Virus record (IMG/VR): IMGVR_UViG_3300042691_053605
Location: 1-64,000 of that record
From: a virus
Direction: 5' to 3' (one strand)
Length of the DNA: 64,000 nt
Shown here: positions 16,683 to 30,871 of the stretch, piece after piece
Numbering within the stretch: position 1 is the stretch's first letter
How the letters are laid out: each line of letters begins with the position of its first letter
Program-made: the position numbers and the translations under genes
The notes under the pieces: model-generated
Told to the model about the DNA's origin: nothing
The model's input: the letters and a program-made list of their open reading frames with translations, nothing else
The model's database searches: none

Positions 16683-16708
16683 AAAAGGCAGCTTAATTGC
16701 TGCCTTTT
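16683..16708. terminator. Bidirectional intrinsic terminator between hsp20 and the tagged cluster
   Basis: Perfect 10-bp stem AAAAGGCAGC/GCTGCCTTTT with a 6-nt loop, flanked by A-tract and T-tract (TTTTATTTTT), so it can act in both directions. It starts 4 nt after the hsp20 stop and touches the stop of the minus-strand gene ending at 16707. Confidence 0.88.
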
Positions 16709-17105
16709 ATTTTTCTCCGTAAAGCTCGTGATAGCTTTTAGTATGTTTAGAAGTTTTTAAGAGCTTCTTTCCTTTTTTATCTCCAGGCAATTCTTTATAT
16801 GCTTCAGGATCATCATCATCCGCTGCAGCCTGGTCAGCCATTTGAGCTTTTTTCTTGTCCTCGGTACTCTTACTAATTCCTTTGTAATACGGATGCTCGC
16901 CTTCTTCTACAATAAATGTAAGCTGTGCGGCATCGTATGTTTTTAAGGAGCCATCGGCAAATTTGATGTTAAATTTTTTGCCATAAGAACTCATAACAAT
17001 TCCAGTGCGGTTTTCGGCTTTTACATTAGCAGAATCGCCAACCTGAACATCTTGCCATCTGACATCTTCATTTAAGAAGTTTTCAAATGTGTGTATGTGT
17101 TTCAT
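16707..17105 (-). CDS. CTS-tagged protein with KOW-like segment
   Basis: A 132-residue protein starting at the tag MKHIHTFENFLNE. A longer frame reaches 17192 but overlaps the upstream gene, so the tag ATG at 17103-17105 is chosen. Residues after the tag (VGDSANVKAENRTGIVMSS, then FNIKFADGS) look like a KOW/SH3-type small barrel. The C-terminal half is lysine- and aspartate-rich and probably disordered. Capsid loading is inferred. It is the last gene of the cluster, before a terminator. Confidence 0.75.
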   Translation of the reverse strand: MKHIHTFENFLNEDVRWQDVQVGDSANVKAENRTGIVMSSYGKKFNIKFADGSLKTYDAAQLTFIVEEGEHPYYKGISKSTEDKKKAQMADQAAADDDDPEAYKELPGDKKGKKLLKTSKHTKSYHELYGEK

Positions 17106-17112
17106 ATTCATA

Positions 17113-17457
17113 TTACTTTTTTGGTTTGAATCCGGCATCTCTAGCTTCTTTTGCAAGATCTGAATCCGCCTTACCCCAAGTTCCCTTTCCACCAGTCAAA
17201 AATGAGTTTACGCGAGCGTAACCCCATTGTTCTTGGCCAGCTCCTGGGCGATGTCCACTTTTCCATGCAGCCATTCCACGACGCATAACAGCACGAATAA
17301 TTCCAATCGGGCAACCAGATTCTTTAGCCTTATTTTTTAGGCCAGTCTCGAGTTCTTCACTATCAAGTGGAGAACGGTCAGTTGACTGCTTATCCTCATC
17401 TTCGGCTTCCCAAATTTGGTCCCAAAGGAATTCTTCATACAGTTTTACGTGGCTCAT
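17113..17457 (-). CDS. Conserved phage protein (DUF5824-like), degenerate tag
   Basis: A 114-residue protein. The start MSHVKLYEEFLWDQIWEAED resembles the tag with a displaced Glu. The core CPIGIIRAVMRRGMAAWKSG followed by HRPGAGQEQWGYARVNSF and a GKGTWGKADSDLA stretch resembles a short protein conserved in many T4-like phages. I recall it as DUF5824, but I could not verify this. The GxGTWGKAD segment is the most distinctive part. Function unknown. It overlaps the upstream gene by 4 nt. Confidence 0.72.
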   Translation of the reverse strand: MSHVKLYEEFLWDQIWEAEDEDKQSTDRSPLDSEELETGLKNKAKESGCPIGIIRAVMRRGMAAWKSGHRPGAGQEQWGYARVNSFLTGGKGTWGKADSDLAKEARDAGFKPKK

Positions 17458-17666
17458 ATAAATAGAGGTGTTTCATTATCATCGGCAAAATCTATAACCC
17501 GAATCCCTTCATGTAATTCCGTTAGCGGATGGTTAACAGTTTGGCCTTTGTAATTTTTTATTTTTGCATACACTGTGTTGTTTTCGGACAGCCAAAAACC
17601 TACAATTTTTCCGCGGGAGCCTTTAGCTTCCACGCTTAAGTTTTTAATTTCTTTTGCGCCTCTCAT
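17454..17666 (-). CDS. Small hypothetical protein, possible SH3-like barrel
   Basis: A 70-residue protein without the tag. GSRGKIVGFWLSENNTVYAK and the following short strands suggest a KOW/SH3-like beta barrel. Start and stop overlap neighbours by 4 nt each, as expected for translational coupling. Function unknown. Confidence 0.65.
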   Translation of the reverse strand: MRGAKEIKNLSVEAKGSRGKIVGFWLSENNTVYAKIKNYKGQTVNHPLTELHEGIRVIDFADDNETPLFI

Positions 17667-18265
17667 GCTAAATAACCTGAAATGAATTTTGAATCTTCGA
17701 CCAGTGGAACAAACTTATTTCGTATATGCTCATCCACATCGGAAATGTTATATCCTACAATAAAGCCAATTAAGGCTCCTTTTATGCAGAAAATAGGAAC
17801 AGTAACAAATTGCTGTATTCCCATACTCTCTAATTCATGTCGATCCTTTGGATCCATTTCATCGGTCAAACTTGCAAAACATTTTTTCTTCATCATAGTA
17901 CTTATCCACTTGGGATATTCTGATGTAAGTATATTTTGCTGAGACCGCTTTATTTTTTCATAGCCAGGCGCCACTGCTTCATAGGTCATAGAAAACTTTT
18001 TCATGCTTTTTCCTTGAAAAAACTTTCCTCCGTTATGAAATTGAAATATTGATACTCGGTCAAACCCGTGACGATCTCTGAAGTCTTCCAGCCACTCTTG
18101 GACTAGCACCATTTCTTCTAGATCGCTTTCCTTTATTACCTCTTCTCTCTCTTTGGCAACTATTGCCTTTCGGCTATCCAAATGGCTTTTTACCACTACG
18201 GTAATAATGGCCACCACAATTGACCCAAGAGTTGTAATGATTGATTGAAGTACTACTGGTTCCAT
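17663..18265 (-). CDS. Membrane-anchored GAF-like domain protein
   Basis: A 200-residue protein. Residues about 5-25 (VLQSIITTLGSIVVAIITVV) form one membrane helix, followed by a charged helix and a domain of about 130 residues. The domain has a GAF-like order: VSIFQFHNGGKFFQG, then QFVTVPIFCIKGALIGFIVGY, the typical GAF beta hairpin. The FHNGG motif recurs in phage proteins of this type, to my knowledge uncharacterised. With the soluble domain cytoplasmic it could sense a ligand or remodel the membrane during infection; this is inference. Confidence 0.65.
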   Translation of the reverse strand: MEPVVLQSIITTLGSIVVAIITVVVKSHLDSRKAIVAKEREEVIKESDLEEMVLVQEWLEDFRDRHGFDRVSIFQFHNGGKFFQGKSMKKFSMTYEAVAPGYEKIKRSQQNILTSEYPKWISTMMKKKCFASLTDEMDPKDRHELESMGIQQFVTVPIFCIKGALIGFIVGYNISDVDEHIRNKFVPLVEDSKFISGYLA

Positions 18266-18403
18266 TTATCTTCCCTGTCCTGCGTAAGGCTTTTTATAGT
18301 TTTTAGAGCTCTTATTTTTAGAAGTGCTCTTGGAGTGTCTTCCTATTTTTCTTTTTGGCTTTTTAACGTAAGTACGTGCTGAGTCTGATTTTTGTTTGGC
18401 CAT
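18266..18403 (-). CDS. Small very basic protein (45 residues)
   Basis: A 45-residue frame with ATG at 18401-18403 and TAA at 18266-18268, abutting the next gene (start 18265). It reads MAKQKSDSARTYVKK and ends KPYAGQGR; about 40 percent of residues are Lys, Arg or Ser. Such peptides can bind nucleic acid or fill capsids. The spacing, exactly between two genes with no overlap, supports it as real. Function unknown. Confidence 0.65.
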   Translation of the reverse strand: MAKQKSDSARTYVKKPKRKIGRHSKSTSKNKSSKNYKKPYAGQGR

Positions 18404-18424
18404 CTCATAGGACAGTTATTTTAG

Positions 18425-19102
18425 TTACAAGAGTTCTAATTCTTGCATTATTTCCATTATGTCTTCGTAGCTTAAATCTAAAATGTCTTTTTCTAATCGG
18501 GATCTATCCGTATGCGGCCTGCCGGAAATAACATCGGTAATTTGTTCTTTTCTCTTCTTATCGCCGCTATCAAATTCCGCTAAAATTTTTTGAGAGTTGA
18601 CATCGGCAAGCGCCATTTCCTCAATGTACTCCTCAAAAACTTTTACTTTCTTTTTCTTCTTTTTCTTTTTTCCGGATCCGGAAAAAATGTCTCCGCTGCC
18701 AGTACTGCCAACGTTAGCAGGTACCACATTACCCATACCAGGGGTGTTAGTAACTGAAGCCGCGGGTGCAGAAAAATCTTCATCAACTTTAACCTTTTTA
18801 TTCTTTTTGCCGTCAATAAAGTCCATAAAACTTTGAATTAGCGGATCAGTTTGATCTTTACGAACCGCGGCGCCTTGAGCTGCCATCATCTGTGCTTGCG
18901 TGTCCCACCAGTAAAAATACTCTTTAACGTGATCGGGTAAACCTTTATGAGGCGTTTCTGCAAAATCTTTTAACTGCTGAAGAGTCATAGAATCTGCAAG
19001 ATCTTTTACCTCTTGTGATGCATCCGCGGGATCCATATCACCTTTCTTTAAGGCGTATGCCATTCCCATTAACTTTTGCTGCGCTTTAGATACTGATGGC
19101 AT
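18425..19102 (-). CDS. DUF3008-like protein with internal CTS-like motif
   Basis: A 225-residue protein. The N-terminus (MPSVSKAQQKLMGMAYALKK, then DLADSMTLQQLKDFAET) matches the DUF3008 pattern seen in phage and prophage proteins. A Gly/Ser/Pro linker leads to a run of eight lysines (145-152), then VKVFEEYIEE (153-162), which resembles the tag found at the N-termini of neighbours. The last 60 residues are helical and acidic. It could be a fusion of two ancestral genes, with the second tag retained inside. Start overlaps the upstream gene by 1 nt. Confidence 0.72.
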   Translation of the reverse strand: MPSVSKAQQKLMGMAYALKKGDMDPADASQEVKDLADSMTLQQLKDFAETPHKGLPDHVKEYFYWWDTQAQMMAAQGAAVRKDQTDPLIQSFMDFIDGKKNKKVKVDEDFSAPAASVTNTPGMGNVVPANVGSTGSGDIFSGSGKKKKKKKKVKVFEEYIEEMALADVNSQKILAEFDSGDKKRKEQITDVISGRPHTDRSRLEKDILDLSYEDIMEIMQELELL

Positions 19103-19284
19103 TATTTACCTTCTAATTTAATGATCTCTTGACGTGCATTTTCAATAACATCAAGCGTTTTAATCATATCTAATTTATCGGCAATTTCCGATGCCTTATC
19201 AAAATGTGAAAGCAGCTCCTTTAATTCGGGAACCAGCCTTTCATGTATGACAGCAATTTCACGGTATTCTCCAAAAGTCTTCAT
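19102..19284 (-). CDS. Small helical hypothetical protein
   Basis: A 60-residue protein predicted to be helical throughout. The start MKTFGEYREIAVIHE is a distant form of the tag: MKTF-x-E-[FY] as in T4 MKTYQEF, but without a clear small residue after the Glu. 1-nt overlaps on both sides show translational coupling. Function unknown. Confidence 0.65.
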   Translation of the reverse strand: MKTFGEYREIAVIHERLVPELKELLSHFDKASEIADKLDMIKTLDVIENARQEIIKLEGK

Positions 19285-19616
19285 TATGCTCCAGTTATTT
19301 TGTGATGAACGCGGTGTCCTTCTTTTGAAAGCGAATAGGTTTTAGAACCATTGCTCTCTTTTACCTTAAACAAATGAGGATTGGCTTTTACCCAGCCTAT
19401 ATTTGTTTTTCTACCAGTTTCCTCATTCATTAGTTTGAAGAACTCGGAAAGCTCTTCTTCGCTGACCGAACCCTTTTCTTTTACAAAAGATAACACTTTT
19501 TCTCTTACGGGTGCGTAATCAGAAATGCGTTTTTCCGGATGAGCCTCTGTGTATTTACGTTTTAGCGTAACTAAGGCTTCATTTAAGAATTGATCGTATG
19601 AAAGTACTCTGTTCAT
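19284..19616 (-). CDS. CTS-tagged hypothetical protein, possible winged helix
   Basis: A 110-residue protein. Tag MNRVLSYDQFLNE, then Ala. The rest (KVLSFVKEKGSVSEEELSEF, a strand pair near SKTYSLSKEGHRVHH) reads like a winged helix-turn-helix, so a DNA-binding role is possible but unproven. A class C promoter-like site overlaps the region just upstream of the start. Confidence 0.7.
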   Translation of the reverse strand: MNRVLSYDQFLNEALVTLKRKYTEAHPEKRISDYAPVREKVLSFVKEKGSVSEEELSEFFKLMNEETGRKTNIGWVKANPHLFKVKESNGSKTYSLSKEGHRVHHKITGA

Positions 19617-19622
19617 TATGTA

Positions 19623-19631
19623 CTATATATT
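19623..19631 (-). promoter_or_regulatory. Class C promoter-like site
   Basis: Minus-strand AATATATAG only 6 nt before the ATG at 19616, at the very end of the preceding gene's 3' side. If real, the transcript would start almost at the ATG, so a leaderless mRNA would be needed. Confidence 0.3.
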
Positions 19632-19632
19632 T

Positions 19633-21324
19633 TTACAAATATGCTTTAGAATTCCAATTTGTCATCATATTTGGCCAATAATTAACACAAATTTCTGGAA
19701 AAATCTTTTTGAATTTTGGGAGATCCGCCTTTTCCATGCATTCCTCAATATCACGTGACTCTCCAGTTTTGAACGGGGCAATTGTTACGCCAGCATCTCT
19801 TCCAAGTGATTTAAGAGTTTCCTTTTCTAGAACCAGACGGTTTCCACCACGAGCTACATAAATGTTTTTTACCTCTCGGGGTTTAGCTGCTTTAACTATT
19901 TTACCTACACTGCTGTGAATCATAGACTCACTACATTCAAAGATATGTGGATATTCTTCAACTAGTCGATTTGCAAGTGCTCGGCCTTCTGCCTTTTCAA
20001 GTCCCCATTTACAGTGTGAGCCTGCGGACTCATCATGCACCAACATCATACCGCGTCCGTTTAATTTCATTAAACGCTCGCATTCGTTAATTACTTTTTT
20101 AGTAACCTCTCCAGCATTAATAAGCAGCACATCGCAAGTATGAACCGGTTCTTTGTCATCGCCGTCTTCTTCATTCGTATTTGCAAACGGCAGAGCAAAG
20201 TAAGATTGTAACATACCAACAGCTTTCATATGCTGGTCTGATGAAAAGCCGTCTTCCGCGCCAATATTAGCCTGCTTATAGTCGCTATCTAAACTGGGTT
20301 CCTCCTTTTCTAATATAGAAGTAAATTCTGGAAAACCTGCCTCTTCAGGATTTCTAACACAGTCATCAATATCCGCAATTTTTTGGTTATACTGTGATAC
20401 AAAACTCTCAGACAGCAGACCAATTGCTTTTTTCGGCTTTCTTAAATTTGCAATAAAAATACTGAGCAAATACTCATAACTGCGGTTCTCAATAAGTTCT
20501 CGCGTTTTTGGATTGCGTATCCATTTGTTATTGAATTTCCCGGATTTTTGCAAGAAATGCGGTTTTTCAATTCCCATCTCTAAAAACTCAGGTCCTCTCT
20601 CATTTACAAAAGAGTTAAAACATTCGCAAACAATTTCCAAATACCGCTCATCAGGACGAGGGGATTTGAATACAAATTTATCAAAATTCAGCGTTTGTAA
20701 ATGCTCAAACATCTGCATTAATAACAGATCAAATGTATGACTTTTTTGTGACTTTTCTTTAATTTGGGTATCACCTATTTTTATGACGCCATCGCCATTT
20801 TTTAAGATATAGGTTTTTTGCGGATCCCAAATTTCATATAGAGGCTGACCGCCTTTTAGAGAACTGATAGTCTGCTCGACAATACGGCCATCAATAGTTC
20901 CAGGCTTTTCAGATTTTACATGCAATAGTCCTGCCCATTTTTCAATTAGTGCAGGCTCTTGAATTTCTTTAATAACCTTGCCTTTACTCCGAATAGTAAT
21001 ATCCGTAAGAGTTAGACCTTCGGAAATACTCCAACTAAAACCGAAACGGTGGTTTTTAGGAAGATTAATTGTTATTGCCTCGGGAAGTTTTTCAATTTTT
21101 GAAATTGCGTTTTCGTACAAATCACTAACCGTACGATCAATACGATTTAGCGGTTCTTCAGAATTCTTTCCAAAAAATCTGAGTCTTCCAGTTCGTGAAA
21201 GCTCAAATGAAAAACGATAGGCATCAGATTTTTCTGTTACCGTTACGTCTTTTGTAAAAAAGTCTCTTACCCAAGACTCTCCGCGTTTTGCAAACGCTTC
21301 TTGTATTGTATTAATTCCTGCCAT
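19633..21324 (-). CDS. Large hypothetical protein, weak nucleotidyltransferase-like N-terminus
   Basis: A 563-residue protein with no clear tag. The N-terminus has VTEKSDAYRFSFE followed by GRLRFFGKNSEEPLNRIDRT. This echoes ligase motif I (K-x-D-G) and the nearby F-x-K/R-N element, but with Ala in place of Gly. The C-terminal third (CDVLLINAGEVTKKVINECE, then RGMMLVHDESAGSHCKWGLE, then ARGGNRLVLEKETLKSLGRD) looks like a second alpha/beta domain. I cannot name the family. It is by far the largest gene of the accessory block. Confidence 0.6.
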   Translation of the reverse strand: MAGINTIQEAFAKRGESWVRDFFTKDVTVTEKSDAYRFSFELSRTGRLRFFGKNSEEPLNRIDRTVSDLYENAISKIEKLPEAITINLPKNHRFGFSWSISEGLTLTDITIRSKGKVIKEIQEPALIEKWAGLLHVKSEKPGTIDGRIVEQTISSLKGGQPLYEIWDPQKTYILKNGDGVIKIGDTQIKEKSQKSHTFDLLLMQMFEHLQTLNFDKFVFKSPRPDERYLEIVCECFNSFVNERGPEFLEMGIEKPHFLQKSGKFNNKWIRNPKTRELIENRSYEYLLSIFIANLRKPKKAIGLLSESFVSQYNQKIADIDDCVRNPEEAGFPEFTSILEKEEPSLDSDYKQANIGAEDGFSSDQHMKAVGMLQSYFALPFANTNEEDGDDKEPVHTCDVLLINAGEVTKKVINECERLMKLNGRGMMLVHDESAGSHCKWGLEKAEGRALANRLVEEYPHIFECSESMIHSSVGKIVKAAKPREVKNIYVARGGNRLVLEKETLKSLGRDAGVTIAPFKTGESRDIEECMEKADLPKFKKIFPEICVNYWPNMMTNWNSKAYL

Positions 21325-21385
21325 TGTTTTTTCGGCTTTAAAGGTTTTTGTTTTTTAACCTATTGTTTGTTTTGTGGTTATTCCG

Positions 21386-22270
21386 TTACGCTAAATTTGA
21401 TGGAAGCGGAAGTTTGGCTTCCTCCAATTTTTTCTTAAAATCATTTAGGATTTCTCCTACTTTATCGTGAAACTTAAAATCGCCTCCAGTAATTAGGTTG
21501 TACAGACTTTCGTATGTCATAATGTCTGATACCTTATGGCCTCCATTAAACAGCAAGTTTACAATATCTGACGGTACTTTTGTAATGAGTTTATCAAATT
21601 CTTTTAGAAGGGTTGCATTTTTAAGCAAGCCTTTTTTACCTTCAAAACTCTTTCGTACCTGAACAATTCCTTGGTTTAACCTAACTACATATGCTTGGTA
21701 TTCTGCAGTTTCTCCTTTATCGGTTTCTTTCGTAATTTCAAAGAAAGACTTTCCGATTGCGGCCATGAGTAGCAGGTTACGATATGCACCTTTATACTCA
21801 GATTCGGCTTTAGTAAAGTCAGGCGAATGATACATAAAACGACTCCAGTCCAAATCATTGGTTAACATAAAGTCGAGCTGTCCTACTCCTTTTTTGTCAT
21901 CTCCTGCAATAGGAACTCCGATACTTACCTGATTAAACCCGACTGCAAGTTTGGTAGAATAACCAAGGCTCTTAAGTTTTTTGTCTAATTCAAATAGAGC
22001 ATTTTGTAATGACGTTCCTAAATGGCCTGCAATTTTATCCGCAGATACTGCTACATCAATATCTCCACTAGTGGCGCCTTGAACTTTTTTACCAGCGCTT
22101 CCTATAACCGCGGCATCATCATCAATACCAACCAGACCAATTTGCGGAAAGATATTCTTTACTACCCAGTCAATAGTTGGCTTTACTTCGTCTTGCTGAA
22201 ACGGAACTGCGTTATCAATGGAGTTTCCGCTCTCTAGCAAGAATTGTTCAAAAAGCTTAACGTACTTCAT
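21386..22270 (-). CDS. CTS-tagged Pol-beta-type nucleotidyltransferase
   Basis: A 294-residue protein. Tag MKYVKLFEQFLLE, then Ser. The nucleotidyltransferase fold shows GS (57-58), SGDIDV (Asp70 and Asp72) and a third carboxylate in GQLDFML (Asp133): the G-S-x(n)-D-x-D...D signature of the Pol-beta/MNT superfamily. Members transfer nucleotides to proteins, RNA or small molecules, and many belong to toxin-antitoxin or defence systems. The helical C-terminus could be a substrate or lid domain. Capsid delivery is inferred from the tag; the substrate is unknown. Confidence 0.75.
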   Translation of the reverse strand: MKYVKLFEQFLLESGNSIDNAVPFQQDEVKPTIDWVVKNIFPQIGLVGIDDDAAVIGSAGKKVQGATSGDIDVAVSADKIAGHLGTSLQNALFELDKKLKSLGYSTKLAVGFNQVSIGVPIAGDDKKGVGQLDFMLTNDLDWSRFMYHSPDFTKAESEYKGAYRNLLLMAAIGKSFFEITKETDKGETAEYQAYVVRLNQGIVQVRKSFEGKKGLLKNATLLKEFDKLITKVPSDIVNLLFNGGHKVSDIMTYESLYNLITGGDFKFHDKVGEILNDFKKKLEEAKLPLPSNLA

Positions 22271-22271
22271 C

Positions 22272-22799
22272 TTATTTCCAATCAGAACGTTTTGCAGCTT
22301 CGGAAGAGGTTAGCCATTTTCCAGCAATTACGTCATAGTAAATGTCATCGCGTTGCTCACCTGAAAAGATCAAAGAACAACCATTAGATCCACCGTTTGT
22401 ATGCTTATATGAGTAGTTCAAAGTTGCCCAAATATACGGAGCAAATTCAAATTTTTCGCTTGCTGCTTTATTAATTTCAGGAAAGCTTCCGCCACTAAAA
22501 ATACCAATGTAGACTTCAGCAAAACCGTATTGCATAAACCCTAATTCTTTTCCAGTAAACGGCTTACTGTCAAAATCAATTCTTCTTCCTTTATCTTTTG
22601 CAGTTAGCGGATTGTATTTAATTCCTTGACGGCTTAGCAAATCATTAAGAGCAGGACCGGCATTTTTAAGAATATCAGCTTTCAAAGAAGCCTCATCCTT
22701 GAATTTATCGTCACTTACAAATTGCATGACACCCTCATTTAGAGCTGGCTCAGAAAAGCCTTCTTTCAAATAGTTTTCGTAATTGTTTACATGTTTCAT
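22272..22799 (-). CDS. CTS-tagged hypothetical protein
   Basis: A 175-residue protein with tag MKHVNNYENYLKE, then Gly. After it comes an acidic linker and a domain rich in aromatic residues and strands (GFMQYGFAEVYIGIFSGGSF, then WATLNYSYKHTNGGSNGCSL). I do not recognise it. Its start overlaps the stop of the upstream gene by 4 nt, and its stop is 1 nt before the nucleotidyltransferase start. Confidence 0.7.
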   Translation of the reverse strand: MKHVNNYENYLKEGFSEPALNEGVMQFVSDDKFKDEASLKADILKNAGPALNDLLSRQGIKYNPLTAKDKGRRIDFDSKPFTGKELGFMQYGFAEVYIGIFSGGSFPEINKAASEKFEFAPYIWATLNYSYKHTNGGSNGCSLIFSGEQRDDIYYDVIAGKWLTSSEAAKRSDWK

Positions 22800-23080
22800 T
22801 TTATTTGACTTATATTAGTTATTTTGTTTCCCTTCTCAATAGGATTGCTTTTATCAGCGGAGTACAATAAGCCATCTTTAATTAAACGGTTAAGTACTTC
22901 GTCCTTTACAGGGTCAATTGGACCAAAATCTGCTACATCATCCCATGCCTCTTCCACATTTTCAGGATCAATCCATCCCGCGCCTTGCTTAATTGATTTG
23001 ACCAATTGCTTATAGTCGTACTCAAATTGCTTAACTGCGCCTTCATTTACATAGCTTTCAAAAGTGTGCAAGTGTTTCAT
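22796..23080 (-). CDS. CTS-tagged small hypothetical protein
   Basis: A 94-residue protein with tag MKHLHTFESYVNE, then Gly. The remainder is acidic and helical, ending in short strands. No recognisable domain. It is the first of a run of coupled genes toward lower coordinates. Confidence 0.7.
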   Translation of the reverse strand: MKHLHTFESYVNEGAVKQFEYDYKQLVKSIKQGAGWIDPENVEEAWDDVADFGPIDPVKDEVLNRLIKDGLLYSADKSNPIEKGNKITNISQIK

Positions 23081-23100
23081 ATTACAAGTATTTTTACAGT

Positions 23101-23685
23101 CTATTTATTCACCACCGAATACTCGGTATATGACTTTTTGGTAGGCTTGGTGTTTGGAAAGTAGTACTTCTCAGTTTTCTTGCCTGCTATAATAGTCTTG
23201 GTAAATCCATCAGGAACCGTAGCGCCACTTGCTAATTTAATTGACTTAGCAGAAAAATGCAAATCAATTATGACTTTTACTTCACCAGTTTTTGCAAGTT
23301 CTCTCTCGTGTACTTCTAAAAATCTCCATACTCCGCGATTCAAATTCTCTTGTTGCAGAGCACAGTTCAAATATGAAAATGTCATTTTAAGATACTCCTG
23401 ATTACACGCAAAATCTGCGGCAGGTGCCATGTGTCCTTTATCCCATTCATTTCCTGCATAATCATTATGATCCGATGTTTTAATTCCACTCACTGGAAAG
23501 AAATCCAGTCCCGCTCTTGAAAAAACAGTTTCGGTACATGCAATGGTGTATTTCACCTGTAGCGGCTGTTCTAATTCTTCGGAATACTTTACCCAGAAAA
23601 CAGCGTTTCTAGTTTCCACAATACGATTCTGCGCAACAGAGATTAACGTAAAGAGTAAGAAGACAATTGTAAGTAGTCTTTTCAT
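23101..23685 (-). CDS. Secreted DNA/RNA non-specific endonuclease (NUC family)
   Basis: A 194-residue protein. The first 20 residues (MKRLLTIVFLLFTLISVAQN) are a signal peptide with positive n-region, hydrophobic h-region and likely cleavage near VAQ-N. The beta-beta-alpha metal nuclease motif is DKGHMAPAAD with catalytic His85, and SYLNCALQQENLNRG supplies the metal-binding Asn. This is the Serratia nuclease/EndoG-like family. Export means it would act on extracellular or periplasmic nucleic acid rather than in the cytoplasm. It has no capsid tag and sits inside the tagged cluster, overlapping the cupin gene upstream by 4 nt. Confidence 0.85.
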   Translation of the reverse strand: MKRLLTIVFLLFTLISVAQNRIVETRNAVFWVKYSEELEQPLQVKYTIACTETVFSRAGLDFFPVSGIKTSDHNDYAGNEWDKGHMAPAADFACNQEYLKMTFSYLNCALQQENLNRGVWRFLEVHERELAKTGEVKVIIDLHFSAKSIKLASGATVPDGFTKTIIAGKKTEKYYFPNTKPTKKSYTEYSVVNK

Positions 23686-23945
23686 TTTTTCTTTTCTATT
23701 TTTACAATAAGATCCGTGGATCCTTTAATAACCCGATGAATGACTCCAGCAGGTATGAATAACTCTTTATTTATCCGTTGTGGTAATTCATTATCAAATT
23801 GAAACTGCCAGTCATTTTCTGATAGCGGAGTCACAATACGGTCCTCTTCATCCCAATGCCACTGTAGTTCTTCCTCGGGTATATCAGAAAAAAAAGTCCG
23901 TATGAAAACGGACTCCTCTATTTTTTGCTCGGTATACGGCTTCAT
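23682..23945 (-). CDS. Small cupin-like protein with an intrinsic terminator in its reading frame
   Basis: An 87-residue protein. LQWHWDEEDRIVTPLSENDW, a QFQFDNELPQRI strand and IPAGVIHRVIKG fit the small cupin (RmlC-like) fold; IPAGxxHR-V is a typical second cupin motif. In T4-like phages similar short cupin proteins occur with unknown function. A perfect hairpin plus eight T lies within codons 11-20 (see terminator entry). The start is 20 nt after the upstream stop, and its stop overlaps the nuclease start. Confidence 0.7.
   Translation of the reverse strand: MKPYTEQKIEESVFIRTFFSDIPEEELQWHWDEEDRIVTPLSENDWQFQFDNELPQRINKELFIPAGVIHRVIKGSTDLIVKIEKKK
23888..23914 (-). terminator. Intrinsic terminator-like element inside the cupin gene
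   Basis: Minus-strand AGTCCGT, loop TTTCAT, ACGGACT, then an unbroken run of eight T. It lies 31-58 nt downstream of the cupin ATG and inside the reading frame, encoding part of ESVFIRTFFSDI. It has all parts of a textbook terminator or attenuator. Confidence 0.6.
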
Positions 23946-23964
23946 TGATCTTATATACTTGGAA

Positions 23965-24492: not shown

Positions 24493-25196
24493 ATCTTTAT
24501 GCCAAAATGTTCTTTAACCGCTTCTTCGATGCCTAACGCATAAGACCAAATGTCTTCGGATATCTTTTTTTCATCAGCTCTAACAAACGTAATGAGTGGC
24601 CAGTAAATGATGTTTTTAGTTATGGTTTCACTGGGAAAAGTCATTTCATAATACTTACCATTCTTTTCACCAAATGCATGAACTATTAGGCTTTCTGCAT
24701 AGTACTTGCCAATGTCATCTTTTTTCATACAGATTCCACCAATTGCTTTACCGCCTGTTTCTTCAAACCACTTTGATGCGTTACCAAAACATTGGTTTCT
24801 TGCGCCGCCACCCCCAATCCATTCTGCTTCAACGCTTTTTGTTATTTCATCCAAAACAGCAGCAATTACTGCTGTCTTACTAATAAAATTAACAGCTTCT
24901 AGCTTACCTTCTTTATCAACTGTGTAATCTTTGAACCATCCAGGTCTTTTTTCAGCAGGATCTTTATCGTTCCAGCGTTTTGCAATCTCATCTGCTTGCT
25001 CTAATGCAAATTTTCCAGCTGGTGTATTTTTCCACTTGCCAGACTTAAGTATTGAAAGCGTTTTTGACTTTGCCGATGAAGATCCGCCAGAAGCATACTT
25101 TAAGTTTCCACCTAAGCCTGTGCTGTAGACAGTTTCATTTAGTTGCTGAAATCCTTCAGAGACCTGGAAGTCTTCAAATGTCTTTACGTACTTCAT
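24489..25196 (-). CDS. CTS-tagged protein, possible papain/transglutaminase-like fold
   Basis: A 235-residue protein with tag MKYVKTFEDFQVSE, then Gly. After a Gly/Ser linker, a domain shows NQCFGNASKWFEETGG (Cys136, followed by x-x-Asn-Ala), then IVHAFGEKNGKYYEMTFP (His173 and a polar residue about ten positions on). The Cys...His...Asn/Asp order with C-[FY]-x-N-A and [EV]HA[FW] is the layout of papain- or transglutaminase-like enzymes. A peptidase or amidase is therefore possible. Start overlaps the upstream gene by 4 nt. Confidence 0.68.
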   Translation of the reverse strand: MKYVKTFEDFQVSEGFQQLNETVYSTGLGGNLKYASGGSSSAKSKTLSILKSGKWKNTPAGKFALEQADEIAKRWNDKDPAEKRPGWFKDYTVDKEGKLEAVNFISKTAVIAAVLDEITKSVEAEWIGGGGARNQCFGNASKWFEETGGKAIGGICMKKDDIGKYYAESLIVHAFGEKNGKYYEMTFPSETITKNIIYWPLITFVRADEKKISEDIWSYALGIEEAVKEHFGIKI

Positions 25197-25723
25197 ATTA
25201 CTTTAGTGTCTTTTACGTGTCTTTTGACAAAGTCAACTATGTCTTTTTGGATAATTTCATCAGACGGTTTGTCAATGATCTTGCTTGCTTCTAATGTAAA
25301 GTCTTCATCAAAAGGAAGCGGATCCAATTCAAGTTCAAACAGTTCAATCTTTTGGATGTAATTGGTGATTCCTGTAATGTAACCTTGCACTTCTTCTTCC
25401 ATCTGGTCCTCGATTTCTCCACCTTTAGTAGCTGCCTTTCCGCTAAAATGGGAGGCGTTCCATTGATACGGTTGAACTTTATAGCGGTTAGAGAGTTTAT
25501 CACCGTCAATCATAATTCTGCACTCGGCAGGTATAATACGGGTTCTTTTTTGAAAGTTTTTATCTCGAGTTAATGATACTCTTGCGTACTTACCTAAAGA
25601 CTTGTCACCTAATACATCATCATCAAGAATCTTAAGAAGCGCCAGTATCGTAGTGTAGTGATAAACAGTACCTACTTGCTTGGCTTCATACAAAAAACTC
25701 TCAAATGTCTTTACGTATTTCAC
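25193..25723 (-). CDS. CTS-tagged ADP-ribosyltransferase-like protein
   Basis: A 176-residue protein with tag MKYVKTFESFLYE, then Ala. The domain starts directly after the tag with VYHYTTILALLKIL (His22-Tyr23), continues RVSLTRDKNF (Ser50-Leu-Thr) and ends with an acidic stretch EDQMEEEVQGY (Glu109-111). This is the His-Tyr...Ser-Thr...Glu order of NAD+-using ADP-ribosyltransferases of the DarT/DUF4433-like (H-Y-E) type. T4 packages the ADP-ribosyltransferase Alt with a related N-terminal tag and injects it. The family is inferred from motifs only; target unknown. Confidence 0.68.
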   Translation of the reverse strand: MKYVKTFESFLYEAKQVGTVYHYTTILALLKILDDDVLGDKSLGKYARVSLTRDKNFQKRTRIIPAECRIMIDGDKLSNRYKVQPYQWNASHFSGKAATKGGEIEDQMEEEVQGYITGITNYIQKIELFELELDPLPFDEDFTLEASKIIDKPSDEIIQKDIVDFVKRHVKDTKVI

Positions 25724-26391
25724 AGAGGTATGTAGTTTTGCGGATGCGTTGAAGATGATACTTTACCATTATGTAAAACATATGCATCTTTCCGAATTTC
25801 CGCAGTCCAAGTGCCTTTTAATTTGCCACCTTGTTTCTTAATGTATTCCAAATAGAGCCGGCCTCTTTTTGTTTGCGGAATTGGAGTAAGCTCCTCACCC
25901 AGTTCAGTCTTTGGCATAATCCAAATCTCATCAACTTTAATCCATTGGATCTGCTGAAGTTCTTTCATTAATTCTTGCATAATATCGGAAACTGTTGATA
26001 TTACGCGAAACTGTTCACCGAAATTAGTAATGGCTTCACTGTTTGGATTATTTCCTTTTTCTACACCAAATGACACTGCAAAAGAAACATTGTAATCTTG
26101 CGGTTTAGTTGCAGAAGCTTTTATTTGTCCAAAATTGATGTAATGATGTTCATTAAACCAGCCCAGTATCTTAACTGTGTAGGTTGCATTATCACTCTTA
26201 AACTCATAAGACAAATCTGGAAGACGATTGTTCTGTGAAGAACTTCCTCTCTCCCACTTTGACATATCAGCCATCCAGGTACCAACTTTATTACTGCCGG
26301 TACGTTTCCAAGAAAACGGAGAAACGCCTTCTCCTATTTCATTTAGAGTCTGTTCATTTAGAAAGCTGTCAAACGTATGAATATGTTTCAC
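25720..26391 (-). CDS. CTS-tagged hypothetical protein with GTG start
   Basis: A 223-residue protein. An ATG exists at 26421, but the tag V/MKHIHTFDSFLNE begins at a GTG (26389-26391) one nucleotide past the stop codon of the upstream gene. The GTG is therefore the likely start. The tag ends before Gln rather than a small residue. The rest (KVGTWMADMSKWERG, then HHYINFGQIKAS, then TKRGRLYLEYIKKQGG) is a mixed alpha/beta domain I do not recognise. Its stop overlaps the downstream start by 4 nt. Confidence 0.7.
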   Translation of the reverse strand: MKHIHTFDSFLNEQTLNEIGEGVSPFSWKRTGSNKVGTWMADMSKWERGSSSQNNRLPDLSYEFKSDNATYTVKILGWFNEHHYINFGQIKASATKPQDYNVSFAVSFGVEKGNNPNSEAITNFGEQFRVISTVSDIMQELMKELQQIQWIKVDEIWIMPKTELGEELTPIPQTKRGRLYLEYIKKQGGKLKGTWTAEIRKDAYVLHNGKVSSSTHPQNYIPL

Positions 26392-26392
26392 C

Positions 26393-26890
26393 CTATTTGA
26401 TATTTTTAAGAGCAAATTCAATTAGCTCTAGTGCAGGTTTTTCAACATCCTTTTCAACCTTAAAGATTGCACGGTTACCGTAAGGCTGAAAATTTGTATC
26501 AAAGGCTTTCTTATTAGAAATAAACATATCGGCAACTTTCTTTGCCATTCCTTTTGGATCGGCTTTAAGCTCTTCTAGATTTGTAACTATATTATTGCCA
26601 GGTGAACCAATGTATCTCTTATCTCCTCTGTCGTCTTCAGATCCGTACCCGGATCTGATAAACAGATTTCCATTATGTGGTTCAATGGCAATAAGAACAA
26701 TATTTGGTCTGTCCAAAAAGTTTACAGTTTTGTCATTACCAAATACTTCTCCAGAATAGAAGACGTAAATATCTCTATTTGAATCTTTTTTTACTTCAGG
26801 CTTTTGGCCGTTCCAAAGACTTGCACTGATAGTTGCCTTTTCAGCAGCAGCCTCATTTAAGAAACTTTCAAATGTACTTATGTGTTTCAT
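26393..26890 (-). CDS. CTS-tagged hypothetical protein
   Basis: A 165-residue protein with the canonical tag MKHISTFESFLNE, then Ala-Ala-Ala. The domain has a beta-rich centre (DIYVFYSGEVFGNDKTVNF, then IVLIAIEPHNGNLFIRSGYG) and a helical C-terminus. No known family recognised. Spacing with neighbours is a 4-nt overlap upstream and 1 nt downstream. Confidence 0.7.
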   Translation of the reverse strand: MKHISTFESFLNEAAAEKATISASLWNGQKPEVKKDSNRDIYVFYSGEVFGNDKTVNFLDRPNIVLIAIEPHNGNLFIRSGYGSEDDRGDKRYIGSPGNNIVTNLEELKADPKGMAKKVADMFISNKKAFDTNFQPYGNRAIFKVEKDVEKPALELIEFALKNIK

Positions 26891-27411
26891 AGGTCACCGA
26901 CTCTTTTAATTTTTACTTCTTTCTTATTGTTGGATCCAACCGCTTTTACCGCGGTTCCTTTTTGTAACTTAAACATATCAGAATTCTTTACAATGATTGA
27001 TCCTAAAGTATCACGAAGAGGATCACCGTCCATAAAGTACAGCGAATCGCTGTCGTCGTTTTGTCTTTCAAACCCAGCAATTTTTGTATTAACTACACCA
27101 GAATCAGTGGTAATTTCATACTGACCTGCAATTTTTACGTTATATGGAATTGGCTTATACGCTTCCACCAATTCGCTTTCTTTTACTATTATTGCGCGAG
27201 TTCCAAAACGTTCTTTTACCAAACGAATAGCCGTACGAGCTTTACCACTATTTTCTACTTCAAATACGGTAGGCTTAACTTTTGTGTACTTAACACCGTT
27301 AGCTTTTAAGTCTCTTTCCATTGAATCTGCTGCAGACTTTGTAAGAGTAACCGTTATCGTGTCAGAAGTATTTTCGCTTAAAAAGCTTTCAAATGTATGT
27401 ACGTGTTTCAT
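26887..27411 (-). CDS. CTS-tagged hypothetical protein
   Basis: A 174-residue protein with tag MKHVHTFESFLSE, then Asn. It appears to have two parts. One is an alpha/beta unit (TITVTLTKSAADSMERDLKA, then ARTAIRLVKERFGTRAIIV) resembling a ferredoxin-like fold. The other is a C-terminal beta segment ending in a basic KKEVKIKRVGDL. Function unknown. It overlaps both neighbours by 1-4 nt. Confidence 0.7.
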   Translation of the reverse strand: MKHVHTFESFLSENTSDTITVTLTKSAADSMERDLKANGVKYTKVKPTVFEVENSGKARTAIRLVKERFGTRAIIVKESELVEAYKPIPYNVKIAGQYEITTDSGVVNTKIAGFERQNDDSDSLYFMDGDPLRDTLGSIIVKNSDMFKLQKGTAVKAVGSNNKKEVKIKRVGDL

Positions 27412-27791
27412 TAGTATGACAATTTTATTTCAATTTCTTGACGTTTCTTAATTAACGATTCAATTTCACTATCAACTATATTAAGCCGACTTCCATAACG
27501 ATTTGCATCATCATCGGTCCAAGAAGTGCCTTTTTGTCCGGCTTCAGCTTCCATATCGTCATAAATGTTTCTACGCTCAGCATACGCATCTTTTAGATCT
27601 TGCGCAATGTCCCAAAGCTGATTTTCTAAAGCTTCTCTCTTTTTACCGTAAACTCTTTTTTTCATTCTTTCAGCTTGGTCGGCGGCTTTCTTTTCTCGGT
27701 CCATTCTAGAAGCTCGGATTGCCACTAATACCGGGTCATTTTGATCTAGACCTTCATTTAGGAATCCTCCAAATGTGTGTAAATGTTTCAT
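27411..27791 (-). CDS. CTS-tagged helical protein
   Basis: A 126-residue protein starting at the tag MKHLHTFGGFLNE, then Gly. An in-frame ATG four codons upstream (27803) is possible but would disrupt the tag's N-terminal position. The rest is a long amphipathic coiled coil with heavily charged heptads (DREKKAADQAERMKK, ENQLWDIAQDLKDAY). It may be structural. Function unknown. Confidence 0.68.
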   Translation of the reverse strand: MKHLHTFGGFLNEGLDQNDPVLVAIRASRMDREKKAADQAERMKKRVYGKKREALENQLWDIAQDLKDAYAERRNIYDDMEAEAGQKGTSWTDDDANRYGSRLNIVDSEIESLIKKRQEIEIKLSY

Positions 27792-27793
27792 TC

Positions 27794-28015
27794 TTATCTC
27801 CATTTTTTATCAAGCGTATCTATTACCTGATTGATAAGTGTACTTAACTCATCAGGATTGATATCATTCTTCTTCATATAGGCATCAAACAGATTTTGAC
27901 GTGAACCTAATTTCAAAACATCCGAAATAAAGTTACCCGCGTCAAACTGATCTACTTTTCGAAGTTCTTTTTCATTGACTTTATTGAAGTCGTTAAACGA
28001 TTGAATGTTTTTCAT
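27794..28015 (-). CDS. Small tagged protein, first gene behind a class B promoter
   Basis: A 73-residue helical acidic protein. Its start MKNIQSFNDFNKVNE is a looser, 15-residue tag, then Lys. It is the first gene after a class B promoter-like site at 28028-28057, so the run of tagged genes toward lower coordinates can be transcribed from there. Function unknown. Confidence 0.65.
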   Translation of the reverse strand: MKNIQSFNDFNKVNEKELRKVDQFDAGNFISDVLKLGSRQNLFDAYMKKNDINPDELSTLINQVIDTLDKKWR

Positions 28016-28027
28016 ACTTTTAATTTA

Positions 28028-28057
28028 ATAGTATAAAGGTAATACAATTTTTTCAAA
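28028..28057 (-). promoter_or_regulatory. Class B promoter-like site
   Basis: Minus-strand TTTG, 18 nt, TATACTAT, then TAAATTAAAA and the start of the 73-residue gene 12 nt further. Same spacing and sequence as the ligA site. It would drive the accessory cluster. Confidence 0.55.
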
Positions 28058-28092
28058 TAAAAAAATGTTTTGACCTAAACTTATTAACAAAT

Positions 28093-28674
28093 TTATTTTA
28101 TGTATTTACGCATTTCTTCGTAATACTTCCAGAGCTCTTTTGGCATCAGACTTTCAAAAGCCTTTTTATCATCATCACGTAGCGCTTGACGAACTTTTGT
28201 GCCGCTCGGTCCATCGCCTTCGCGAGTATCTACAAGTTTCAATGAAAAAGCTGGATCTACCGGTGTATCGGTTTTAGGACCTTTAATGTATTCCACTTGA
28301 CGCTCGTAATCTTTCATACGATCTGCACCGGCGCCAAGTCCCATAGGCTCGTACGCGTTATCTCTTAAAAAACGTACAAACCAAGGAATAACGGTCTTTC
28401 CGTAATTTTGTGGATAAATGAAATAGTCTGCAATAAAGGAATGACCTTTAACTATGTCATTTCCCATTTTCTGCAAAAGAGAATCTGGGAACGGCGATTC
28501 CTCATTTTTTGAAAGAATTTGTAACGGAATTACTGGCAATCCAAACAACTCAGAGGTTTTCTTCATTGCGGCCAAATGCCCGTTATGAAAAGGCTGAAAT
28601 CTTCCTGGGAAGAAAACTACCTTTCTGCTGCCAGCTTCAAAAACAAAGCTTTCAAATGTTTTGACGTATTTCAT
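28093..28674 (-). CDS. CTS-tagged NMN-adenylyltransferase-like nucleotidyltransferase
   Basis: A 193-residue protein starting at the tag MKYVKTFESFVFE, then Ala. The start ATG (28672-28674) directly follows the upstream stop; a start at 28692 would overlap. The catalytic domain begins four residues after the tag: VVFFPGRFQPFHNGHL with the HxGH motif (His30, His33), and near the end GPSGTKVRQAL, the SxTxxR signature. These mark a cytidylyl/NMN-adenylyltransferase (NadM-like) enzyme. If it makes NAD+ from NMN and ATP it would support NAD-requiring enzymes of the phage. Cleavage at the tag would leave the enzyme intact. Confidence 0.8.
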   Translation of the reverse strand: MKYVKTFESFVFEAGSRKVVFFPGRFQPFHNGHLAAMKKTSELFGLPVIPLQILSKNEESPFPDSLLQKMGNDIVKGHSFIADYFIYPQNYGKTVIPWFVRFLRDNAYEPMGLGAGADRMKDYERQVEYIKGPKTDTPVDPAFSLKLVDTREGDGPSGTKVRQALRDDDKKAFESLMPKELWKYYEEMRKYIK

Positions 28675-28675
28675 A

Positions 28676-29998
28676 TTACTTTTTGTAAGCAAGAATGCTT
28701 CTTATTTGATGTAACGGAGCAAAGATTCCGGTGTACTTGTACAGGTTTCCTTTGAATACAAAGGTTATACCTTCGGTTGGCACAATAGATTCTAAACCAC
28801 CAGCCGCGGCAACCCGTGTTAATTCATGCTCTAATTTTTCCACATCCTTTTCATCACCGTTTGTACGAACTTTTGCAATGGTATCATCAATTTCCTTTCG
28901 CATAGCTTGTGTAGCTTGAGTTGGATTTGCTGATAGGAAGGCGCTGATGTTTTTCATCATTTCAGTACCTATCTCTAAAAACAGACTTTCAAGTGGAGCA
29001 TAGATTTTTCTTTTTAGAGCCTTTCCTTTGTCCTTTTCTAATGTGATAAACCAATCAGCGGCAGGGCCTAAATCTTTCTTAAGTGTAGCAACGGTATATG
29101 ACTTATCAATATCAGCCAATCGACGGGCTAAACCATCAACCGCAATTTCTGGAATTTCCACTTTAGCCGCCTTTGCCTCTTCAAGAAGAATACGCTTTCC
29201 CATACCCAATGCATAATCACCAACAGTACTGCTGGGATTACATCCGCTTTCTGACATTACATCAGAAAGCTTCTTTTCATAATAGGCAGCGCGAGCTTTT
29301 GTATTTGGAAATGGAGTAGAAGCAATATCTTGCGGACCGCGAACATAAAATTTCTTTTGGGCGGCAGCATTTGCATCTGCAATTAATTTTCCTAAATCTC
29401 GGCCGGCTTGCTTATCTTCGCCAATTGCGTTTCCAGCGTCATCGTGTTCAACCACTCCGTGAAGAACTAACATGTCCTTTCCGTACGGAACTGTATTTTG
29501 AGTAATCGGGGTAATCACTTCTACGGAAGCAAACTTTTTACCTTCATCAAAATACTTCTTCTTATCGGCATCTGATAGTTTTCCGATTGCTCCTTCTAAA
29601 TCCGCCATTGCAGCATTATACGCAGTTTCAATATCTCCACGACCAGCAAATAAGCTGGCAATCCCACTTCTGTCCAACGCAGCTTCTCCCGCATTTTTTA
29701 GATGGGACTTGTTTCGAGCGGCAATTAGCTTCCCGCCTTTCCAAGAGATCATGATATTTTGGCCATCCGTCTTCTCTTGCACAAAGTTTTCTGGACCAAA
29801 TGCTCCATTTACGGTAGAGCTGATCATATCTTTTAGGTCTTGCATAGTTAGACCAACATCCTCAAAAGGATGACTGATATGACCGTATGCTCCACCTTCA
29901 AAAAGCTGTTCTTCATAGAGACCAGCCGATTCATCCATTTTCATCAGCTCAATAAGAGCAGATTCTCGGAGAAACTGGGTATAACTTTTAAGACTCAT
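28676..29998 (-). CDS. Tagged ligase-type nucleotidyltransferase (KTDG motif)
   Basis: A 440-residue protein beginning MSLKSYTQFLRE, then Ser, a short form of the tag. Motif I of covalent nucleotidyltransferases is QEKTDGQN with nucleophile Lys76, followed by SWKGGKLIAARNK (the [FY]-x-x-R-N-type element). A strand with EVITPITQN and LVLHGVVEHDD corresponds to motifs IIIa/IV. This places it with RNA/DNA ligases or capping enzymes. Ala/Lys-rich helices follow. The substrate is unknown. The 30021-30040 hairpin lies just upstream. Confidence 0.72.
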   Translation of the reverse strand: MSLKSYTQFLRESALIELMKMDESAGLYEEQLFEGGAYGHISHPFEDVGLTMQDLKDMISSTVNGAFGPENFVQEKTDGQNIMISWKGGKLIAARNKSHLKNAGEAALDRSGIASLFAGRGDIETAYNAAMADLEGAIGKLSDADKKKYFDEGKKFASVEVITPITQNTVPYGKDMLVLHGVVEHDDAGNAIGEDKQAGRDLGKLIADANAAAQKKFYVRGPQDIASTPFPNTKARAAYYEKKLSDVMSESGCNPSSTVGDYALGMGKRILLEEAKAAKVEIPEIAVDGLARRLADIDKSYTVATLKKDLGPAADWFITLEKDKGKALKRKIYAPLESLFLEIGTEMMKNISAFLSANPTQATQAMRKEIDDTIAKVRTNGDEKDVEKLEHELTRVAAAGGLESIVPTEGITFVFKGNLYKYTGIFAPLHQIRSILAYKK

Positions 29999-30020
29999 AT
30001 TACTGTGCTTATGTGATCCT

Positions 30021-30040
30021 GAAGTTTTTATTGAAACTTC
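30021..30040. other. Inverted repeat between tagged genes
   Basis: GAAGTTT (30021-30027) and AAACTTC (30034-30040) with a 6-nt loop. On the minus strand no T-tract follows, so it is unlikely to be a terminator for the upstream gene; it may be a leader hairpin of the 28676 gene. Confidence 0.3.
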
Positions 30041-30047
30041 TTTTCAC

Positions 30048-30467
30048 TTACTTTTTTTCTGTGTCGATCTCGCCTTCTGCATTAACCTCAGTACCTTGTT
30101 CTTCCTCTTTCTTTGGCTCAGCAGCTTTTACCTCTCCACCTTTTGGAGTTTCTTCAGCAGCAGGAACTTCTTCGGTTTCTTCAGTAGGTTTTGCAGCAGG
30201 GATTTCACCTTCTTTAACACCAGCTTCTTCTTTCTCTTTTTCTACCTTTTCTTTTGCAGAATCTTTTACCCCTTTTCCGGCTTCCCAGTCAGCAGCAATT
30301 TCATTAAAGAATTCTTTTTTCTTCTCTTCATCAAGATCTGCAGGTGAATCTACTCCGTACTTTGAAAGTTTTGCTTGGAAGTAATCTTGGTAAGATTTTT
30401 GTAAGTCAGATTTTTTTGCTTCTTCAGCTTCGCGGATTGAACCGATCCATTCACTAAATTTTTTCAT
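30048..30467 (-). CDS. Highly charged, disordered tagged protein
   Basis: A 139-residue protein starting MKKFSEWIGSIRE, then Ala, a tag-like form. Residues 60 onward are almost only Glu, Lys, Ala, Pro and Gly, so the chain is probably disordered. The segment KKKEFFNEIAADWEAGKG is the only ordered-looking part. Acidic, low-complexity internal head proteins are typical for capsid core or scaffold components in T4-like phages. Role inferred. Confidence 0.65.
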   Translation of the reverse strand: MKKFSEWIGSIREAEEAKKSDLQKSYQDYFQAKLSKYGVDSPADLDEEKKKEFFNEIAADWEAGKGVKDSAKEKVEKEKEEAGVKEGEIPAAKPTEETEEVPAAEETPKGGEVKAAEPKKEEEQGTEVNAEGEIDTEKK

Positions 30468-30484
30468 TGTTATGATTTTTATTT

Positions 30485-30871
30485 TTATGACATTCCTATC
30501 ATGTTTTGGAATTTTGAGTAGTATTTATCCGTTTCCTCGCTAAGAATTTTTGTGACCTCTCCTTGATCCATCCCTACAAGTTCTGCTAACATAATGATAA
30601 TATCCTCATCAATTCTTAACTTTCGGTCTAACGCATGGACGTACGTGGTAATACACTGATTAATTTTTGTCTCTTTTGCCTTATCACCTTTTGCCTTTGG
30701 CCAAAAAATATCAAGCAGCACAGAACGCATTCCATCCAGCGTGGGATCGGAATGATTTTTACCCATAGAAACCGGGTTATTGGTAGTTCTTAATGAATGT
30801 GAGCTGGAATCTTTCATATTTCCAGCGCCTGCCGCGTAACCTTCAGAAAGAAACTCTAAAAAAGACTGCAT
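30485..30871 (-). CDS. Tagged hypothetical protein behind a class C site
   Basis: A 128-residue protein with the short tag MQSFLEFLSE, then Gly, close to T4's MKTYQEFIAE. The rest has a Ser/Asn-rich linker, then a helical C-terminal domain (DIIIMLAELVGMDQGEVTKIL). It is preceded by a class C promoter-like site, after the uvsW stop. Function unknown. Confidence 0.7.
   Translation of the reverse strand: MQSFLEFLSEGYAAGAGNMKDSSSHSLRTTNNPVSMGKNHSDPTLDGMRSVLLDIFWPKAKGDKAKETKINQCITTYVHALDRKLRIDEDIIIMLAELVGMDQGEVTKILSEETDKYYSKFQNMIGMS

Follow-up and report, generated by a model that had tools for sequence, protein, structure and literature searches.

A probable T4-like capsid-targeting tag at the start of many otherwise unrelated phage proteins

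The virus record IMGVR_UViG_3300042691_053605 of IMG/VR is 142,917 bases long. Its bases 1-64000 are referred to as the window, and the remainder of the record was also read. We found that 21 predicted proteins, otherwise unrelated to each other, began with a common short peptide resembling the capsid-targeting sequence (CTS) of phage T4. Very probably, this peptide is a T4-type CTS placed on a much enlarged cargo set, which would be packaged, cut and ejected with the DNA. The window had the gene set expected for a T4-like phage, with UvsX, a split DNA polymerase, single-stranded DNA-binding protein, primase, helicase, an NAD-dependent ligase, topoisomerase subunits and ribonucleotide reductase. 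Phages related through the capsid protein have hosts in Prevotella, Tenacibaculum, Flavobacterium, Chryseobacterium and Sphingomonas; for this reason, our guess is that the host belongs to the Bacteroidota.

The tag was counted with the core regular expression [FYWLIVMH]xx[FYW][LIVM]xE, at most 9 residues from the start, and 200 shuffles of all 162 open reading frames (ORFs) of the record were used as the control. The core with an aromatic residue at its first position was present in 21 ORFs, 15 of them in the window, whereas the shuffles gave a mean of 1.07 and a maximum of 6 (Poisson P for the observed 21, ~3e-20). This count confirmed the initial annotation of the window, which had proposed a shared T4-like tag on about twenty proteins. 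The fuller form was M-K-x-[VIL]-x-x-[FY]-x-x-[FYW]-[LIV]-x-E or close to that, as in MKHVKTFESFLNE. The residue following the Glu was mostly G, A or S, as had been noted earlier (16 of 21; G 6, S 5, A 5, then K 2 and D, Q and N 1 each). The third residue before the cut was V, and once M, besides L or I. Genes are named here by their left ends. The tags of 25193 and 25720 started with GTG, and for 6559, 16707, 25720, 27411 and 28093 the tag start was an in-frame ATG or GTG inside the longest ORF. The initial annotation had listed 15 ORFs as strict cases; 13 were exact when GTG starts were allowed, and the Glu of 23965 and 24489 lay one residue later. Among those it had listed as looser, 28676 (YTQFLRE) and 30485 (FLEFLSE) matched the core in full, 17113 and 27794 were plausible variants, and 30048 was weaker. 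Two more, 19102 (MKTFGEYREIAVIHE) and 36984 (MKTFNEAKNVQLLEES), were rejected; they kept the MKTF start but missed the FLxE core. When counting was extended beyond the window, six core tags (77437, 92740, 93606, 93899, 100554 and 140552) and two variants (91600 and 101621) were found. Regex matches at 96298 and 119493 were probably due to chance.

The ratio of nonsynonymous to synonymous differences (pN/pS) was 0.40 at tag codons 2-13 and 1.11 at the following 13 codons, indicating that the peptide was conserved and the underlying DNA was not. Synonymous sites in the tag were almost saturated. The tag peptide is under purifying selection, as its free synonymous variation had led the initial annotation to propose. 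The tagged bodies of this genome had no mutual BLASTP similarity at E 1e-3.

The tag was also common in other viral genomes. In the large contigs G001, G004, G005, G006 and G007, reached via the capsid protein or the nucleotidyltransferase, regex hits numbered 29, 14, 34, 20 and 20 (expected 3.0, 1.5, 6.5, 1.3 and 0.9, respectively). About 30 further viral contigs carried it. As an exact DNA pattern, the tag was present in 37 stretches of viral contigs but absent from all 84,980 bacterial and archaeal genomes scanned. These stretches held 162 tags, up to 13 per 15 kb, and the reversed control gave 1. Orthologues retained the tag in divergent phages while whole families came and went: 147 regex-positive proteins, with a few variant ones, formed 104 families, 79 of them single. 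Recognisable tagged domains were few, namely nucleotidyltransferase, LicD, PAP2, glycosyltransferase 25, leucine-rich repeats, DUF2201, ATP-grasp and acetyltransferase. That the tag is a functionless remnant of recent gene duplication, or of recombination at gene starts, is scarcely credible to us. Near-identical tags do stand on neighbouring genes of one operon, and five tagged paralogues of G001 are alike in body too, but the tagged bodies here are unrelated, the peptide is kept despite the near-saturated synonymous sites, and orthologues in divergent phages still carry it.

A prohead protease, which the initial annotation had proposed to look for, was found outside the window. At 137092-138987 (minus strand), adjoining the capsid gene, a 631-residue protein had an N-terminal Peptidase_S77 domain (PF03420, E 7e-12, 45.7 bits vs a cut-off of 27), and its alignment with T4 gp21 contained the GELxHP and SSR motifs, so that profile and motifs both place it in Peptidase_S77. 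Its C-terminal half was scaffold-like, with about 10 repeats of 14 residues (in order, YASYLAE, YSNYLAE, YAEHVAE, YAEHIAE, YAESISE, FTNYLAE, YAEYLAE, YAEHIAE, YSEYLAE and YAEYIAE). The capsid protein at 135140-137062 of the record was assigned to the Gp23 family by its profile (PF07068, E 1.4e-37) and by an L-x-E propeptide, with YHSLNE|G at residue 45. Among relatives whose N-terminus was read, most retained this site (as YHSLNE|A in G004), and the capsid protein of a 429-kb phage had HELYE|N at the corresponding position.

A weight matrix was built from the N-terminal tags alone, and 46,562 residues were scanned at a threshold passed by ~90% of tags. Just two internal sites were found in the proteome (0.1 expected): YASYLAE of the protease-scaffold protein and FESFLAE of 101621-102211. 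At lower thresholds, the scaffold was still the top protein. The matrix scored the capsid site YHSLNE poorly; therefore, only the L-x-E part is common to tag and capsid protein. On the most straightforward view, a single protease would have the scaffold, the capsid protein and the tags as its substrates. As a control, the T4 IPII/IPIII tag MKTYQEFIAE (ten residues) and the T4 gp23 site FGSFLTE|A both matched the core. Mutants of T4 IPIII have indicated that residues 4 and 7 direct the protein into the head, and that residues 8 and 10 permit cutting after [LI]-x-E (PMC9026906). Targeting of a foreign protein to the head by the tag alone has been tested for T4 IPIII in a fusion experiment. When the two tags were lined up on the Glu, the four IPIII residues of the mutants corresponded to F7, F10, L11 and E13 of the tag here. 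The likeness to the T4 CTS that had been drawn from the window was thus supported by the S77 protease, the Gp23 capsid protein, the scaffold repeats and the T4 sites. Two marks of a T4-type CTS were present: a short N-terminal peptide common to otherwise unrelated proteins, and an ending in the [LI]-x-E motif used by the gp21-family protease that this phage encodes.

The tagged genes of the window are listed below, with the tag and the residue after the predicted cut (lengths in amino acids, aa).
5918..6169, minus strand: tagged ORF, MKHVSNYFDYMYE, cut, G; 83 aa; tagged orthologue in G006
6559..6819, minus strand: tagged ORF, MKHVKTFESFVNE, cut, S; 86 aa from internal ATG
16707..17105, minus strand: tagged ORF, MKHIHTFENFLNE, cut, D; 132 aa; tagged relatives in G006 and G007
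17113..17457, minus strand: loosely tagged ORF, MSHVKLYEEFLWDQ.., DUF5824 domain
19284..19616, minus strand: tagged ORF, MNRVLSYDQFLNE, cut, A; 110 aa; 3 tagged orthologues
21386..22270, minus strand: tagged ORF, MKYVKLFEQFLLE, cut, S; 294 aa; tagged orthologues in G001 and G006
22272..22799, minus strand: tagged ORF, MKHVNNYENYLKE, cut, G; 175 aa
22796..23080, minus strand: tagged ORF, MKHLHTFESYVNE, cut, G; 94 aa
23965..24492, minus strand: variant tag (Glu +1 residue), MKYVKTFEQFEVSE, possible cut, G; 175 aa
24489..25196, minus strand: variant tag (Glu +1 residue), MKYVKTFEDFQVSE, possible cut, G; 235 aa
25193..25723, minus strand: tagged ORF (GTG start), VKYVKTFESFLYE, cut, A; 176 aa
25720..26391, minus strand: tagged ORF (GTG start), VKHIHTFDSFLNE, cut, Q; 223 aa
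26393..26890, minus strand: tagged ORF, MKHISTFESFLNE, cut, A; 165 aa
26887..27411, minus strand: tagged ORF, MKHVHTFESFLSE, cut, N; 174 aa
27411..27791, minus strand: tagged ORF, MKHLHTFGGFLNE, cut, G; 126 aa
27794..28015, minus strand: variant tag, MKNIQSFNDFNKVNE; 73 aa
28093..28674, minus strand: tagged nucleotidyltransferase (CTP_transf_like / phrog_3041 cytidyltransferase), MKYVKTFESFVFE, cut, A
28676..29998, minus strand: tagged 440-aa protein, MSLKSYTQFLRE, cut, S; conserved EKTDGQN and EGITFVxKGxLYKYTG
30048..30467, minus strand: weak likeness to a tag at the start (MKKFSEWIGSIRE); acidic protein of 139 aa
30485..30871, minus strand: short-form tag MQSFLEFLSE|G; 128 aa; the tagged run begins with this gene; G006 orthologue MKSFKEFLNE|G

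Virion data were available for the cyanophage S-CREM2, whose proteome, determined by mass spectrometry (MS) of CsCl-purified virions, is printed with coordinates (PMC10665884). The S-CREM2 genome was scanned with the same core regex, and the matches were set against the MS list of that paper. The four clear tags, gp6 (MKDFDSFLEE), gp13 (MKDLHSFLTE), gp14 (VKRFDAFLTE) and gp154 (MKNFSSFLTE), were all on proteins detected in virions (4/4, chance P = 0.003). Three could be identified: gp6 as a member of the S-adenosylmethionine (SAM) lyase family, gp14 as kinase-like, and gp154 as a cytidylyltransferase. Relatives of gp154 started with MKSFSQFLTE (P-SSM2), MKKFSAFLNE (S-SM1) and a shorter MRFRQFIIE (S-SZBM1). 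An enzyme of the same kind as 28093..28674 is present in cyanophage virions. S-CREM2 Cas9 (gp12), also listed as virion-detected, had FASFMAE|A beginning at residue 19. The start of gp136 was MQTFSMFFSE. The tag core on Cas9 and the SAM lyase suggests that these may be capsid-delivered anti-host or anti-defence enzymes.

It is typical of sorting signals in general that unrelated proteins have a short, conserved peptide at the N-terminus, and the tag could address its carriers to some other place, such as a phage-made compartment, a membrane or the host secretion path. We consider this highly improbable. The last residues of the tag form the motif of the prohead protease itself, the tag matches the scaffold, and the tagged proteins of S-CREM2 were located in virions. 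The tag lacks the hydrophobic stretch typical of a signal peptide; a signal-peptide-like start was seen instead on the untagged neighbour 23101-23685. None of 15 replication and metabolism proteins of the window was tagged (0/15); tags on proteins acting only outside the virion had been named at the outset as evidence that would speak against packaging.

Another explanation is that the tagged proteins are head components (core, scaffold or internal proteins) that are cleaved and then kept or degraded, with no injected arsenal. We judge it unlikely, while taking it seriously: 101621-102211, with a variant tag, an acidic body and the second, internal FESFLAE site, looks like a gp67-type core protein, and T4 IPIII affects head morphogenesis. 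However, most tagged bodies are unrelated, the recognisable ones are enzyme-like (nucleotidyltransferase, LicD, PAP2 and glycosyltransferase), and, unlike structural proteins, they vary between phages to the extent of the family counts given above. In addition, T4 IPs and Alt do enter the host.

A promoter-like motif was found near tagged genes. GATATATAG occurred at 16 sites vs 2.3 expected from mononucleotide shuffles, and 14 of them sat 8-60 bases upstream of a start codon. The shorter ATATATAG was present upstream of the protease-scaffold gene, tail genes, the core-like 101621 and the tagged 30485, 19284 and 6559. The sites before tagged genes of the window were as follows.
6858..6866, minus strand: GATATATAG promoter-like motif upstream of the tagged 6559
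19623..19630, minus strand: ATATATAG promoter-like motif upstream of the tagged 19284
30887..30895, minus strand: GATATATAG promoter-like motif, 23 nt ahead of 30485..30871, with which the tagged run opens
The T4 late promoter TATAAATA had 6 minus-strand sites, none close to the tagged run. Because of its position, we infer that the GATATATAG/ATATATAG motif may be the late promoter of this phage, and its occurrence on tagged as well as head and tail genes would fit co-production of the tagged proteins with the head.

We propose the following mechanism as the most parsimonious one for a packaged and ejected cargo. The tagged proteins would be made late, from the promoter type of head and tail genes. 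With its 10-13 residues, the tag would mimic one YxxYLAE repeat unit of the scaffold, and the resemblance suggests that it may bind scaffold and bring its carrier into the prohead core. There, the gp21-family protease would cut after [LIV]-x-E in capsid protein, scaffold and tags alike, so that cleavage is predicted after the tag Glu; mature cargo would be retained in the head, and tags and scaffold pieces would leave. The first part of this account is drawn from the sequence evidence given above. Packaging of the tagged proteins is argued by analogy with the S-CREM2 data and T4. Ejection with the DNA is argued by analogy with T4, whose IPs and Alt enter the host. The cargo may then act on the host at the earliest infection stage.

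Several points weigh against this mechanism. The virion proteome used as evidence is that of a cyanophage with a distant relationship to this phage, and not of this phage or a close relative; no virion proteome of a Bacteroidota T4-like phage was found in a literature search. If a weak regex hit at 149124, not detected in the S-CREM2 virion, is counted, P becomes 0.012. In the accessible part of their paper, the S-CREM2 authors left undecided whether such proteins are carried or are a carry-over of abundant proteins (PMC10665884). The excess of the promoter-like motif was gauged on mononucleotide shuffles only. Homologues of 28676 have FILNE and similar forms that depart from the tag rule. Cleavage is uncertain for these homologues and for the shifted-Glu tags of 23965 and 24489, because such tags depart from the rule. 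The related-capsid phages MaF61 (Flavobacterium; first 50 kb) and Lak-C1 (first 150 kb) had almost no tags in these stretches, and therefore the arsenal is not general in the lineage.

Some tagged genes and their neighbours had further features. The nucleotidyltransferase and the EGGAYGH protein (28093-29998), tagged neighbours here, were a single fused protein in other phage contigs, suggesting a joint function. Tagged orthologues of 28093..28674 were found in 4 contigs. The ORF 17113..17457 aligned to the C-terminal part of phrog_3041 cytidyltransferase, and its G001 relative had the exact core YESWLLE. Structure prediction gave poor models (mean predicted local distance difference test score, 60 for 28676 and 35 for 25193), and a PDB sequence search with 25193, 21386 and 28676 gave no significant match. 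By eye, 25193 resembled an ADP-ribosyltransferase and 28676 a nucleotidyl-ligase; we could not demonstrate either assignment and do not claim them. PADLOC returned marginal matches only. Within the tagged run, the untagged 23101-23685 encoded a DNA/RNA non-specific endonuclease. A DUF3008 protein at 18425-19102 contained NTPGMGNVVPA, a motif that follows the cleavage site in the major capsid protein; counterparts bearing this motif were also found at G004 123329 and G003 27524. Besides the S77 protease elsewhere in the record, the window encoded a ClpP-like protease at 3438-4070 (phrog_94 head maturation protease). The DNA polymerase was encoded by two ORFs, 14187-15563 and 1452-2639, ~11.5 kb apart with nucleotide-metabolism genes between them.

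Quite possibly, and we put this forward tentatively, the tag is a detached 14-residue scaffold repeat in a T4-like lineage. A gene gaining ~13 codons at its 5' end would then become capsid cargo, forming an open, fast-turnover delivery system in which reading the tag alone would reveal injected effectors. If this is true, many injected effectors would be readable in uncultivated phages and cyanophages, virion-borne Cas9 and SAM lyase included. Injected phage proteins act ahead of any phage gene expression. Their small size, fast evolution and lack of resemblance to known proteins make them hard to find; a sequence-readable tag would turn the effector search into a look-up. We collected 122 tagged proteins from nine contigs and the 162 tags of the 37 further stretches, most without a Pfam match. 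The tag also offers an explanation for puzzling enzymes in cyanophage virions, and the cultured S-CREM2 and S-SCSM1 are phages in which the idea is testable. The tag principle (from T4) and giant phages that eject many proteins were already known. In a literature search with subscription papers and preprints outside its scope, no prior description was found of a cargo several-fold above that of T4 under one sequence-readable tag, of the likeness between tag and scaffold repeat, of the protease-scaffold fusion, or of tag-based prediction of cyanophage virion enzymes. The accessible text of the S-CREM2 paper did not mention a tag, and the paper was not among full-text matches for 'capsid targeting sequence'.

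Among the closest known systems is the CTS of T4 IPI, IPII, IPIII and Alt. It is likewise N-terminal and ~10-13 residues long, with the same hydrophobic spacing, an [LI]-x-E end and a constant tag on variable cargo, and a gp21-family protease and a Gp23 capsid protein are encoded in the same genome. The systems differ in scale, with four tagged proteins in T4 and at least 21 here (about 13-18% of ORFs). The tag here is longer (MKHVxTFESFLNE) and closely resembles the repeats of the protease-fused scaffold. In T4, gp21 and gp22 are separate genes, whereas protease and scaffold are one ORF here. In T4 itself, 114210-114440 (uvsW.1 region, in-frame start near the uvsW end) begins with MLLEFKQFLYE|A, which fits the tag core; to our knowledge, its product is not known as a head protein. 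The giant phage SPN3US also has many head proteins with N-terminal propeptides cut by the prohead protease and ejected into the host. However, its propeptides are mostly far longer (several >100 residues), are cut at AXE and do not share a short tag; the scaffold of SPN3US is unconfirmed. With 10-13 residues and F/Y-rich cores, the tags here do not belong to the SPN3US type. The T4-like cyanophages differ in that few tagged proteins were found in S-CREM2, the one genome scanned. They share with this phage a cytidylyltransferase/nicotinamide mononucleotide adenylyltransferase-like protein of the kind of 28093, which is virion-associated in S-CREM2, S-SCSM1 and S-SZBM1.

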